Source: Bacteroidota bacterium (GTDB taxonomy: Bacteria > Bacteroidota > Bacteroidia > Bacteroidales > GCA-2711565). Taken from it: a DNA stretch of 64,000 nucleotides. Under the pieces are notes generated by a model, which saw only the letters and a program-made list of their open reading frames with translations, made no database searches and was not told the origin of the DNA. The stretch covers positions 1 through 64,000 of the forward strand of contig JAHIVC010000097.1 of NCBI GenBank assembly GCA_018816945.1. The letters run 5' to 3'. Position numbers and translations under genes: made by a program. Below, piece by piece: positions 4,457 to 14,172 of the stretch (the first letter of the stretch is position 1; the number at the start of each line of letters is the position of its first letter).

Positions 4457-5980
4457 CTAATCCGGCTTGGATGTTTTTAAGGTTACTTTTAGCTTGTCTA
4501 ATTGATCGGCAACAGATCGGTCATTACAAAGATGAACAACTTTATTTTGCCCACCAATTTTACCGCTGAGTTCCATGTATTTTTTAAACCCGCTCGACCT
4601 GACCGGGGTGATTTTTAAAGGCTGCAGGATATTTCCTACGATCAAGTCGTCGTAATAAATGTTCTTCTTTCGTAATAACAGATCTAGTTTTTTCCCTAAT
4701 GAATGGAGGTCGTTTGATGCTTTTTCAAACTCTATAAACCACTCGTGGTAAGGGAGTTCATTGTTTTCCGGGTTTACCTGCGGAGCCACGGTAAACTCAA
4801 TGATTTGGATATTTTCTATTTGGGCCATCTCCTCAATTGCGCTTTCAACTTCTTCGGCTATTACATGTTCTCCAAAAGCAGAAATAAAATGGTTAATTCT
4901 TCCGGTAACTACTATTTTATAGGGGTTTAGCGAGGTGAATTTGATCGTGTCACCTATTAGATAACCCCAAAATCCGGCATTTGAATTTACGACAAGCGCA
5001 TAGTTTTTATTCAGTTCTACATTTTCTATACAGATTCTATTTGGGAATGTTGACATGGATTCTTCCGCAGGTATAAACTCGTAAAAAATGTTTTCGTTGA
5101 GCAATAAGAGGAGGTCTTTTTCTTTAAGACTGTTCTGGTAGGCAAAAAATCCTTCGGAAGCGGGATACACTTCAAGGAAGTCAACATTTGGACCAATGAG
5201 TTTTTTAAATGTCTTTTTATACGGATTGAAATTGACACCGCCAAAGACGATTAATTGAAGTGCCGGAAATACTTCTTTGATGGTTTTTTTACCGGATCGT
5301 TCTAAAACTTTCATGAAATACATTTGAAGCCATGGAGGAATCCCACCGATTAAGGTCATATTCTCATCAATCGTTTCTTCTACCACAGCATCCACTTTTT
5401 CCTCCCAATCATCTATACAATTGGTTTTAAATGAAGGGAGACGGTTGCTTTGCAAATATTTTGGAACGTGATGCGCTACAATTCCGGATAAACGACCAGT
5501 TGGAATGCCTTTCGTTGATGATAATTCCGGACTTCCCTGAAGAAATATCATTTTACCGTTCACCAGTTCGGGATGATTGTTCTCATGAATATAGTTTAAC
5601 AAGGCGTTTCTGGCGCTGTTAATATGATTGGGCAATGATTCTTTACTAATGGGAAGGTATTTGACGCCGGAGGTGGTTCCCGAACTTTTGCAAAAATAAA
5701 TGGGCCTGCCCGGCCACAAAACATCTTTTTCGCCACTCTTGACACGTTCAATATATTCCCTTATATCTTCATAACTACGAATCGGAACATGTTTTTTAAA
5801 TGATTCATAGTCGTGTATCTGGGCGAAATGATGGTCCTTGCCAAACTTTGTTTCTTTACCTTGACTGATCAAATAATTTAAGGTCTTTTTCTGATATTCA
5901 ATTCCGTTCGAAACCCACTTGTTTGTTTTTCTTACGATGATTCCGGCAAACATTTTAGTCAACCATTGTTTCCCTCTCAT
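4457..5980 (-). CDS. GH3-family acyl-adenylating / acyl-amido synthetase
   Basis: A 507-residue member of the GH3 family (plant auxin-responsive GH3 and bacterial relatives), within the ANL adenylating superfamily. Plant members activate a carboxylic acid with ATP and join it to an amino acid. Visible motifs: the phosphate-binding SSGTTSG at residues 99-105, the 'YPASEGFFAYQ' block corresponding to the YxxSE nucleotide motif, the hinge-like TGRINHFISAFGEHV block near residue 340-355, and a C-terminal Lys-rich segment. No signal peptide, so cytosolic. The start codon sits 2 bp after the stop of the upstream M20 hydrolase gene, so the two are almost certainly co-transcribed and translationally coupled. 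Substrates cannot be read from the sequence. Partnership with an amidohydrolase suggests acyl-amino acid chemistry (inference). Confidence 0.85.
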   Translation of the reverse strand: MRGKQWLTKMFAGIIVRKTNKWVSNGIEYQKKTLNYLISQGKETKFGKDHHFAQIHDYESFKKHVPIRSYEDIREYIERVKSGEKDVLWPGRPIYFCKSSGTTSGVKYLPISKESLPNHINSARNALLNYIHENNHPELVNGKMIFLQGSPELSSTKGIPTGRLSGIVAHHVPKYLQSNRLPSFKTNCIDDWEEKVDAVVEETIDENMTLIGGIPPWLQMYFMKVLERSGKKTIKEVFPALQLIVFGGVNFNPYKKTFKKLIGPNVDFLEVYPASEGFFAYQNSLKEKDLLLLLNENIFYEFIPAEESMSTFPNRICIENVELNKNYALVVNSNAGFWGYLIGDTIKFTSLNPYKIVVTGRINHFISAFGEHVIAEEVESAIEEMAQIENIQIIEFTVAPQVNPENNELPYHEWFIEFEKASNDLHSLGKKLDLLLRKKNIYYDDLIVGNILQPLKITPVRSSGFKKYMELSGKIGGQNKVVHLCNDRSVADQLDKLKVTLKTSKPD

Positions 5981-5982
5981 GA

Positions 5983-7407
5983 TTACTTATTTATTGATTC
6001 TTCGAGAAACTTTAAATAAACTTTAGCCCCCATATATAGCCCTTTTATAGGTATTCTCTCATTTTCTGCGTGAATACACTTTAAATATTCAATATCCAAT
6101 TCAATTGGAATAATTGAAAATCCCTGAATACCCTTTGATCGAAAAGGGCCAACATCATTATAGTTCGGTAGCATGATCGGTATAGTGGTCACGTTTTCGT
6201 AGGATGCAAAAATTGCAGATTCAAGATGGCTATAAAACAGGTTTTCAATGCTTGATGCCATGGTAGGGCCCTTAGCTGCCACAATACCGATGCTAATCTC
6301 GTCATTTTTGAGTTTCTTTTGAATGAATTTGATCGTTTTTTTCTGCGGGTATTCAGGAAGCAATCGACAATCCAGGGTAACCGAAACCTTATTGGGTATT
6401 TGATTGATTGCCCCGGAATTGCTGTTAATGGAAGTAATTGTTATCGTATTAGTGAATAGTGAAAATATTTCCGGTTTATTTCGAAGCTTCTTTGATAAGA
6501 TGAACTTGAAGCATCGCGGATGTTTCAACACGAATTTCGTTATACATGACTTTTGCTTACCTATGGCCTTTAATATTTTTATGTTTTCTTTTGTATAAAT
6601 GAAGGGAGTCTTTTTCTTGGCCAAATTCGACAATGCAATGGTCATTTCTTTAATAGCGTATTGCAACGGCGTCACCGATCCATGTCCTAAAGTGGGAATA
6701 CTCAGTTCTAAATGCAACCATAATGGTCTTTTTTGCACTACCGAAATTCCAAATATCGGATCATCTGTCTCTGCTTCGATGAGGTCACTCAATTCTGTCG
6801 CTCCTTCGCCTATGACAACTACAGGGTTTAAGTCGTGTAGATATTTATTCAGAACATACTCAACTCCTCCATCACACATGGTTTCTTCACATGAAACGGC
6901 CAAGAAAGTGACATTGTATTTAGACTCTATTGTATCATATTTGGATTTGTACTCCAATAAGCTGAATAATTGCATGATTGCAGCTCCCTTGTTATCAAAT
7001 GCGCCTCGTCCCCAGACTTCTGTATCAGAAATATATCCGGAAAAAGGGGGGTGGATCCACAAATTTGAGTCACCCTCATCCACAACATCTATATGATTTA
7101 ACAGAATGATGTTAGGCAGATTGTTTTCTAATGGCAACAGGGAGGCGCCAAAGTTGTAATTGGCATCTTCGTTACCATATTCATAGATATAAAGTCCGTT
7201 TTCACGGCAAACACTTTTCAGCCAGTCTCCGGCATATTGCTCATGACTGCTTAATGATTTATGCTGAATATATAAACTAAGTACTTCGGGTGCCGACAGC
7301 ATTTTACTGTTTACAGAAATTCTGAAAACCGAATCAGCGAAATTTGCTTCGGCAATTGTTGAATATCCAGTGAAAAATGATAATAAAAATATAAGTTTCA
7401 AACGCAT
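5983..7407 (-). CDS. Exported M20 metallohydrolase, PM20D1 / carboxypeptidase S-like
   Basis: A 474-residue zinc hydrolase with a signal peptide (about residues 1-22). M20 metal-site residues are all visible: His105 and Asp107 (LLNHIDVV), bridging Asp138 in GRGAFDNKG, catalytic Glu174-Glu175 (SCEET), an acidic ligand in the VVVIGEGAT block near 199, and the last His in CIHAENERI near 450. The overall pattern (PPFSG, GRGAFDNKG, a long insertion before TNTITITSI, a C-terminal IHAENE) resembles mammalian PM20D1 and yeast carboxypeptidase S rather than short ArgE/DapE enzymes. PM20D1 makes and hydrolyses N-fatty-acyl amino acids. First gene of a two-gene unit with the GH3-type synthetase; no clear promoter was found. 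M20 assignment is firm; the PM20D1-like subgroup and substrate are inference. Confidence 0.86.
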   Translation of the reverse strand: MRLKLIFLLSFFTGYSTIAEANFADSVFRISVNSKMLSAPEVLSLYIQHKSLSSHEQYAGDWLKSVCRENGLYIYEYGNEDANYNFGASLLPLENNLPNIILLNHIDVVDEGDSNLWIHPPFSGYISDTEVWGRGAFDNKGAAIMQLFSLLEYKSKYDTIESKYNVTFLAVSCEETMCDGGVEYVLNKYLHDLNPVVVIGEGATELSDLIEAETDDPIFGISVVQKRPLWLHLELSIPTLGHGSVTPLQYAIKEMTIALSNLAKKKTPFIYTKENIKILKAIGKQKSCITKFVLKHPRCFKFILSKKLRNKPEIFSLFTNTITITSINSNSGAINQIPNKVSVTLDCRLLPEYPQKKTIKFIQKKLKNDEISIGIVAAKGPTMASSIENLFYSHLESAIFASYENVTTIPIMLPNYNDVGPFRSKGIQGFSIIPIELDIEYLKCIHAENERIPIKGLYMGAKVYLKFLEESINK

Positions 7408-7741
7408 TTATCGTAAGTTTAAAAAGTTTATAACTATAAAATTACATTAGACCATAAGGTTTTGCCGCTAAGAACATACCACATAGTAAAATAAATAAAA
7501 AGCATTGAACTTACCAAACATCAAAAGCCCAAATACAATAAATAGGCTGTTACGTGTTCGTGAATTATTGTCTGAGATTTAGTAAGTTTCACATTATCAA
7601 CACATAAGATATTAGATTGGGTTTCAAGTTTCAACCTGCCTGCCAGGCAGGGTTTCAAGTAACAAGATATCAGATCAGGTCTGTGGGATAAGAAATAAAT
7701 CCCTGCAAACGATGCATTAAACATGATTCAATTAAAAATCA
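7408..7741. other. Gap with palindromic repeat; no convincing gene
   Basis: This 334-bp gap separates the his operon's 3' end from the start of the M20 gene. It holds a perfect palindrome at 7635-7651 (CCTGCCTG-C-CAGGCAGG) within TTTCAAG-type low-complexity sequence (caagtttcaa, gtttcaagtaacaag). An open frame at 7521-7724 runs through the repeat and has no recognisable protein character. No clear T-tailed terminator was seen for the his operon. Confidence 0.5.
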
Positions 7742-12672: not shown

Positions 12673-14172
12673 TTACGATTTTAATCCTCCTTCGCGTTCG
12701 CTGCGGCGAACGAGCAGGGATTGGTTAGTTTTTAGTGTTTTAGTGGAACTATTTGCCTCCAAAGATTTTAATGACTTCAATTGATTCATTCTGATTGTTA
12801 CTGCGTTTTTGTGTGCCATGAGCTGCTCGGCTTCGGCCATCATTTCGATGGCAGGGCCAATGCGCTCTAATCCTTCTTTACTTATTTCCTGAAAAGTGAT
12901 TTTTTTCATGAAACTTTCTACTGAAACACCGCTATAATTGCGGGCAAATCCATTGGTAGGCAATGTGTGATTAGTGCCACTGGCATAATCGCCCGCACTT
13001 TCACAACTATAATTTCCGATGAAAACGGATCCGGCATTTGAAATTTGGCCGAGGTATTTTTTTGCATTTTTTATGGCAAGGATCAAGTGCTCCGGTGCAT
13101 ATTTATTACTGAGTTCAATGCACTCCTCAATATTGTTGAGTAAAATTGCACGACTGTTTTCGAGTGCCTTTTGAGCGATTGCTTTTCTGGGTAACAGGTT
13201 CAATTGTTTTTGAATCTCTTCCAAACTCTTTTTAATAATTTCTTCACTATCAGAAAGCAAAATAACCTGACTATCGGTGCCATGCTCAGCTTGTGAAAGC
13301 AAATCGGCAGCAATAAATTCAGGGACCCCACTTTCGTCGGCAATGATGAGTACTTCGCTAGGTCCGGCGGGCATATCGATAGCCAGACCGTATTTAAGTG
13401 CTTCCTGTTTGGCGGCAGTTACATATTGATTTCCGGGACCGAATATTTTATCTGCTTTCGGGATGCTTTCTGTTCCGAAAGTCAAAGCTGCAATGGCTTG
13501 AATGCCGCCAACTTTAAAAATGGTTTCGATCCCAATTAGTTCGGCAGCATATAAAATAGCCGGATTAATGTTTCCATTTTTATCGGGTGGTGTACACAAA
13601 ATGATTTCTTTACATCCAGCAATTTTTGCAGGAATACCCAACATTAAAACGGTTGAGAAGAGGGGAGCAGTGCCTCCGGGGACATAAATCCCAACCTTCT
13701 CGATCGGACGATCTTCGCGCCAGCAATTCACCCCTTTGCTTGTTTCTATTTTAACAGATTTTTGAATTTGAGCTTTATGAAAGATTTCAATGTTATTTTT
13801 GGCAAGTTTCATCGCTTCCTTTAATCTGCCTTCGCGTTCCGCTTCGGCAGACGAGATGGGGTGGCATAATTCCCCAGAGCTTGTTACGGAAGAAAGGGTC
13901 CAGGGCTTGCCTTGGGATTTAATGCCATTTATTTCATCACTTAAGCCCGACGAATTTTTGATCCTGTTTTTGTCAATCTTAACCTCTTCGATTTTTACTT
14001 TATCGAACAGATAAGTATAGTATTTCAGTGATACATCTCCATTTTTTTTGATGTCGGAAAATACTTCTTTTACCAGTTGATTCAGGTTTTCTGAGTCAAT
14101 AAATGGACGTTGAATGAGTTTTTCCAGTTCGGTCGAGTCAAATTTATTACCTGTATTGTTTGTGTATTGCAT
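12673..14172 (-). CDS. hisD: Histidinol dehydrogenase with in-frame repeat-derived insertion and tail
   Basis: NAD- and zinc-dependent enzyme oxidising histidinol to histidine in two steps. Family motifs are intact: YVPGGTAPLFSTVLM, GPGNQYVTAAK, the Glu/His pair, QAEHGTDSQ and SAGDYASGTNHTLPTNG. The protein is 499 residues, whereas the family usually has about 430. The excess is in two places. Residues about 82-116 (13825-13929) interrupt the N-terminal helix that normally runs LSDEI...LKEAMKLAKNNIE, and about 30 residues follow the usual end. Both extra parts end in matching nucleotide sequence (CTCGT..GCCG.AGCG..AACGCGAAGG....ATTAAA), so the same palindromic repeat entered the gene twice in frame. 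The catalytic core is untouched and the operon is otherwise complete, so activity is likely retained (inference). Confidence 0.95.
   Translation of the reverse strand: MQYTNNTGNKFDSTELEKLIQRPFIDSENLNQLVKEVFSDIKKNGDVSLKYYTYLFDKVKIEEVKIDKNRIKNSSGLSDEINGIKSQGKPWTLSSVTSSGELCHPISSAEAEREGRLKEAMKLAKNNIEIFHKAQIQKSVKIETSKGVNCWREDRPIEKVGIYVPGGTAPLFSTVLMLGIPAKIAGCKEIILCTPPDKNGNINPAILYAAELIGIETIFKVGGIQAIAALTFGTESIPKADKIFGPGNQYVTAAKQEALKYGLAIDMPAGPSEVLIIADESGVPEFIAADLLSQAEHGTDSQVILLSDSEEIIKKSLEEIQKQLNLLPRKAIAQKALENSRAILLNNIEECIELSNKYAPEHLILAIKNAKKYLGQISNAGSVFIGNYSCESAGDYASGTNHTLPTNGFARNYSGVSVESFMKKITFQEISKEGLERIGPAIEMMAEAEQLMAHKNAVTIRMNQLKSLKSLEANSSTKTLKTNQSLLVRRSEREGGLKS
12678..12722. repeat. Palindromic repeat forming the HisD C-terminal tail
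   Basis: Contains a perfect hairpin: CGTTCGC at 12695-12701 and GCGAACG at 12706-12712. It encodes the last residues of HisD (S-L-L-V-R-R-S-E-R-E-G-G-L-K-S) and its stop lies at its edge. On the coding strand it shares the block AACGCGAAGG....ATTAAA with the insertion at 13825-13929. Confidence 0.75.
13825..13929. repeat. In-frame 105-bp insertion inside hisD
   Basis: Boundaries are set by comparison with the usual HisD helix and are approximate to a few codons. The segment is a multiple of three and adds about 35 residues rich in Ser, Gly, Pro and charged residues. One end (13825-13851) is a hairpin with arms TCTGCC and GGCAGA and carries the sequence shared with 12678-12722. Base composition is visibly more GC-rich than the flanking gene. 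Confidence 0.7.

Follow-up and report, generated by a model that had tools for sequence, protein, structure and literature searches.

Conserved adjacency of a GH3-type amido synthetase and an exported M20 hydrolase in Bacteroidota points to a possible N-acyl amino acid cycle

In the genome of a Bacteroidota bacterium (assembly GCA_018816945.1, contig JAHIVC010000097.1), a gene for a predicted exported M20-family hydrolase directly precedes a gene for a GH3-type acyl-acid amido synthetase, and the two gene families are neighbours in every sampled genome of the order that holds both. We tentatively read the pair as a two-compartment cycle that makes and breaks the amide of an N-acyl amino acid, a reading to which we give somewhat less than an even chance. 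Within the 64,000-nt stretch that was analysed (the window), the locus comprises the following features:

5983-7407, minus strand: M20-family metallo-hydrolase, predicted to be exported, 474 aa, first gene of the pair (PF01546 and PF07687 above cut-off, invariant residues, own clade)
7342-7407, minus strand: signal peptide of the M20 protein, approximately residues 1-22, MRLKLIFLLSFFTGYSTIAEAN (from the sequence; cleavage site judged by eye)
4457-5980, minus strand: GH3-type acyl-acid amido synthetase, 507 aa, second gene of the pair, without a signal peptide (Pfam domains, NF052613, motifs I-III)
5981-5982, minus strand: spacer of 2 bp from the M20 stop codon to the GH3 start codon, TAA-TC-ATG (from the sequence)
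7408-7741, minus strand: gap of 334 bp between hisIE and the M20 start (from the sequence)

Both open reading frames were verified at these coordinates on the minus strand. The original prediction had placed the two genes 2 bp apart, as the sequence at the junction confirms, and such close spacing would be consistent with translational coupling. Upstream of the M20 gene, across the 334-bp gap, lies the end of the histidine operon (hisIE, hisF, hisA and on), and downstream of the GH3 gene a rubrerythrin-like gene runs in the opposite direction. A TAnnTTTG -7 site was not found in the hisIE-M20 gap. In the same gap, between positions 7600 and 7670, repeats of a AACTTGAAAC-like motif lie on either side of a short palindrome, CCTGCCTGCCAGGCAGG, and an altered form of this arrangement is present in a congener. 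Further along the operon, hisD (12673-14172) carries a 111-bp in-frame insertion (13825-13935) that is absent from the hisD of the congener G001 (463 aa); the insert and the 3' end of hisD share a similar palindrome-like stretch (GCGAACGCGAAGG and GCGGAACGCGAAGG, respectively), which is perhaps a small mobile palindromic element.

A search of genome contigs returned a single match, a 93% identical congener (MAG HGW-Bacteroidetes-17). In comparison with the pair of this congener, dN/dS was 0.20 for the M20 gene and 0.16 for the GH3 gene, so both are under purifying selection; the values for five neighbouring his genes in the congener comparison were 0.09-0.15.

The GH3 protein exceeds the Pfam cut-offs of 23.6 bits for PF03321 (151.6 bits), PF23571 (52.6) and PF23572 (60.8), and carries all three nucleotide-binding motifs, as SSGTTSGVK, YPASE and GFWGYLIGD. 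Within these motifs, S100 and K107 (motif I), A274-S275-E276 (motif II) and G343-D344 (motif III) are invariant in 26 sequences. The GH3-type synthetase with complete motifs that had been proposed is borne out by these matches, and the protein is a complete GH3-fold acyl-acid amido synthetase, for which ATP-dependent amide synthesis is predicted.

The only NCBIfam match of the GH3 protein is OlsH, the lyso-ornithine lipid synthetase (NF052613; 388.9 bits, cut-off 620); two GH3 paralogues in the same genome score 403 and 322 bits. OlsH of the planctomycete Singulisphaera acidiphila makes N-acyl ornithine with ATP and Mg2+ from free fatty acids, not from acyl-ACP or acyl-CoA, and loses its activity when the motif-I residue Ser115 is replaced by alanine (PMC12493201). 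S100 of the window protein is the counterpart of this serine. Both proteins have the GH3 fold domains, are predicted to be soluble and are of similar length, and their motifs are similar: TSGTTQG in OlsH versus SSGTTSG in the window protein (motif I), YPCSE versus YPASE (II) and GMWSHLIGD versus GFWGYLIGD (III). With a score well under the cut-off, the window protein is a relative of OlsH and not a member, and its identification as OlsH itself was rejected. The O-acyltransferase OlsI, which shares an operon with OlsH in planctomycetes, is absent beside it; its neighbours are the M20 gene, the his operon and the rubrerythrin gene, with the M20 hydrolase as partner instead. About 90% of the OlsH homologues in bacterial genomes belong to Bacteroidota, and it has been argued that these probably use other amino acids (PMC12493201, JBC 2025).

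N-acyl amino acid lipids in Bacteroidota are also made by GlsB and GlsA, and a complete glsA-glsB pair, with both proteins over their NCBIfam cut-offs, is present in the genome studied here (contig C73; locus L188, 493-2274). Glycine lipids can consequently be made independently of the window GH3, and the idea that this protein is required for them was dropped. In contrast to the GH3 protein, GlsB and GlsA are unrelated enzymes (a GNAT-type N-acyltransferase and an O-acyltransferase, respectively) without a hydrolase partner. In two families, a third, more distant type of GH3 has a LysE-type exporter gene immediately behind it, at distances of 0 and 16 bp (L027, 8955-11123, on contig C99 of the same genome, and L030, 918-3147, in G032). 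Such a linkage, the second seen for a GH3, suggests that the product is exported.

The M20 protein is likewise a complete metallo-hydrolase and scores over cut-off for both the catalytic domain (PF01546, 61.5 bits) and the dimerisation domain (PF07687, 31.8 bits). H105, D138, E174, E175, E201 and H446, which we take to be the metal ligands and catalytic base of M20 enzymes, are invariant across 25 homologues. A hydrophobic N-terminal segment occurs in 24 of these 25 proteins, and the N-terminus of the window protein is a typical signal peptide, in agreement with the export that had been predicted for it. The variable metal ligand is a glutamate (E201) in all 25 homologues; among M20 enzymes, a glutamate at this position goes with carboxypeptidase or deacylase specificity, not with aminopeptidase specificity. 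The superfamily is made up mostly of peptidases and deacylases, dipeptidases included, and its acylase-type members undo N-acyl amino acid amides. AlphaFold models of the two proteins, built from two-row alignments, had pLDDT values of 32 and 29, too low to be usable.

The original prediction had called the hydrolase PM20D1-like, a label that found no support in this form. PM20D1, yeast CPS1 and the PRK08262 proteins are, like the window protein, M20 proteins of similar length (470-510 aa) that begin with a signal or membrane segment. However, the window protein matches PRK08262 (PM20D1/CPS1-like) only weakly, across most of its length, at 86.5 bits against a cut-off of 825, and its best NCBIfam score is to the uncharacterised PRK07906 (133 bits, cut-off 382). 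In the M20 tree, which used the PRK08262 group as the bacterial stand-in for CPS1/PM20D1 and left mammalian PM20D1 out, all 25 relatives form a single clade (99-100% SH-aLRT) that lies outside PRK08262, ArgE, DapE, PepD and the M20D-type amidohydrolases, while the PRK08262 proteins form a clade of their own. The references included M20s of approximately 25% identity, the only ones returned by a tblastn search of plasmids, and the AU test of the M20 family and PRK08262 as one clade left the PRK08262 relatives from Ruegeria and Vibrio on the other side. The PM20D1 label is too narrow: the window M20 belongs to the same broad superfamily and to a different clade. Grouping with ordinary dipeptidases, which had been named beforehand as evidence against the proposed function, was not seen with the PepD or PRK08201 dipeptidases of the same genome, all of which are on long branches.

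Conserved adjacency in relatives, which had been set beforehand as a test of the pairing, was observed. Among 393 genomes of the order, in which M20 relatives were identified by profile search and the GH3 subfamily was defined by at least 47% identity, the GH3 subfamily is present in 17 and the M20 family in 24. Both occur in 15 genomes, and in all 15 the two genes are neighbours; in two others (G166 and G051) the GH3 occurs without the M20, and a further nine carry the M20 but not this GH3 (Fisher p = 4e-19 for co-occurrence, uncorrected for phylogeny). In 13 of the 15 pairs the M20 gene lies upstream of the GH3 gene in the same direction, with gaps of 0-139 bp, and the remaining two, from family f59, are arranged tail-to-tail with a 35-bp overlap. 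The pairs span five families (f1, f33, f39, f52 and f59) and their flanks vary, from the his operon in f1 to gyrB and a methyltransferase gene in f39 and dehydrogenase genes in f33. With neighbours in all cases, in five families and between differing flanks, chance adjacency was dropped as an explanation. A lysine substrate, suggested by neighbouring genes for alanine-dehydrogenase-like and saccharopine dehydrogenase proteins, was likewise set aside, as that linkage is confined to f33. Even within the genus the pair occurs patchily: in the congeners G003 and G004 the his genes are present, the pair is not beside them, and neither gene occurs at the ortholog level.

In a wider set of 395 Bacteroidota genomes, the GH3 subfamily was found in 86, one copy each (a count that includes G064, a borderline case of 40% identity that the tree places outside the subfamily). 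The M20 was found in two of the 395, the genome of the window and G571, where GH3 and M20 are on different contigs. As the GH3 mostly occurs without the M20 outside the order, it does not need the hydrolase in order to function. The GH3 is a common enzyme that leads an independent existence, and the M20 is an optional partner added in one order. Solo GH3 genes adjoin dxr and rseP, or M23-peptidase-like and AMP-nucleosidase-like genes (assigned by reading the sequences). The unpaired M20 of G032 sits in a lipid-biosynthesis cluster (L030, 5102-10992) with a FabF-like synthase, a lipid-A-type (Lip_A-type) acyltransferase, a small hotdog-like protein and a B12/radical-SAM lipid biosynthesis protein that is over the TIGR04072 cut-off; another GH3 lies 7 kb away.

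The gene trees show no one simple inherited block for GH3 and M20. The window M20 clusters with the unpaired copies from G184, G571 and G236 (99%). In constraint tests, whose groups were partly named after the trees were seen, a single clade of all paired M20s was rejected (p = 5e-29, or p = 2e-6 without f59), as was one holding the f33, f39 and f52 M20s together (p = 0.008). The GH3s of f33, f39 and f52 form a 100% clade. For the GH3 tree, one clade of all paired proteins was rejected as well (p = 3e-4), whereas one that also admits the solo GH3 of G051, i.e., one origin and one loss, was not (p = 0.26). Either the genes joined repeatedly, or an ancient pair was lost and reshuffled; in both cases, some reason is needed for their lasting adjacency.

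In the cycle that we tentatively prefer, the cytosolic GH3 would use ATP to adenylate a free acid, probably a fatty acid, and pass the acyl group on to an amino acid, at the amino group, yielding an N-acyl amino acid. Since GlsA and GlsB handle glycine, this amino acid is probably not glycine, nor need it be ornithine. The product would get to the envelope, where the exported M20 would hydrolyse this compound, or equivalents of it that come from outside the cell, to a fatty acid and an amino acid, and the freed acid could be re-used by the GH3. The chemistry of each enzyme is the one suggested by its family, and we infer a substrate common to both from the linkage only. In its favour we count that the adjacency is kept even where the orientation has changed to tail-to-tail, and that the nearest relative of the GH3 to be characterised, OlsH, produces N-acyl ornithine. 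Counted against it are the abundance of GH3 without M20 together with the nine M20-only genomes, the breadth of the M20 superfamily from dipeptidases to deacylases, and an M20 beside a histidine ammonia-lyase gene in G145.

The last two points bear on a different reading, which takes the M20 for an ordinary periplasmic enzyme (a dipeptidase, a carboxypeptidase or a deacetylase) that either provides the GH3 with its amino acid or is merely co-regulated with it, the two enzymes acting on different amides. Most of the superfamily is of this peptidase or deacylase kind, the best-matching NCBIfam models are uncharacterised, and the unpaired M20 of G571 lies beside a dapA-like gene (read by eye). 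In G145 (L093, 5938-8878) the M20 overlaps the start of the histidine ammonia-lyase gene, hutH, which is over cut-off, by approximately 25 bp, an arrangement that would also fit release of the amino acid from a peptide. Yet the M20 clade is separate from the dipeptidases of the genome itself, and E201 speaks for a carboxypeptidase or deacylase over an aminopeptidase; we consider this reading unlikely, if a serious candidate. Rather less probable in our judgement is that the periplasmic M20 cleaves foreign or envelope N-acyl amino acids or lipopeptides and the GH3 re-conjugates the imported fatty acid to an amino acid of the cell, in a scavenging or head-group exchange with inward flow and different substrates for the two enzymes. 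The free fatty acids taken by OlsH are exactly what M20 hydrolysis would release (PMC12493201), the M20 gene comes first in most pairs, and patchiness within the genus is as expected for an accessory uptake function; on the other hand, no conserved transporter or fatty-acid uptake gene was found in the neighbourhoods of the pairs. The domains and motifs, the relation to OlsH and the lipid cluster of G032 together favour a make-and-break or a scavenging cycle. Very improbable, finally, is a signal or detoxification cycle in which the GH3 joins an aromatic or other small acid to an amino acid and the M20 reverses this outside. Plant GH3 enzymes, the only solved relatives found, do conjugate auxin, jasmonate and benzoates, but in sequence and motifs the window GH3 is much closer to the fatty-acid-acting OlsH.

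The plant systems nevertheless share the logic of the proposed make-and-break cycle, as their GH3 enzymes (JAR1, GH3.5, GH3.12) are adenylating amide synthetases whose products are undone by M20 amidohydrolases of the ILR1/IAR3 type. They differ in the weak similarity of plant GH3 to the window protein (phmmer E ~1e-18 or weaker) and in that the plant hydrolases are M20D enzymes, a type outside which the window M20 falls. It is possible, though doubtful, that the plant GH3/ILR1 cycle has a bacterial counterpart in Bacteroidota: a dedicated linked pair, whose genes have stayed adjacent and may have come together more than once, by which an N-acyl amino acid other than one of glycine, as a membrane lipid or secreted signal, is made in the cytosol and broken in the periplasm.

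Bacterial GH3-like N-acyl amino acid synthetases have been known since 2025 and M20 hydrolases for long; no description of a linked GH3-M20 pair was found in the open-licence PMC papers searched. The conserved M20 partner predicts that the GH3 product has an amide cleavable by an M20 enzyme, and so offers a concrete handle on the substrate of the Bacteroidota OlsH homologues. As N-acyl amino acids are host-active lipids, Bacteroidota enzymes that make or remove them matter beyond this genome.
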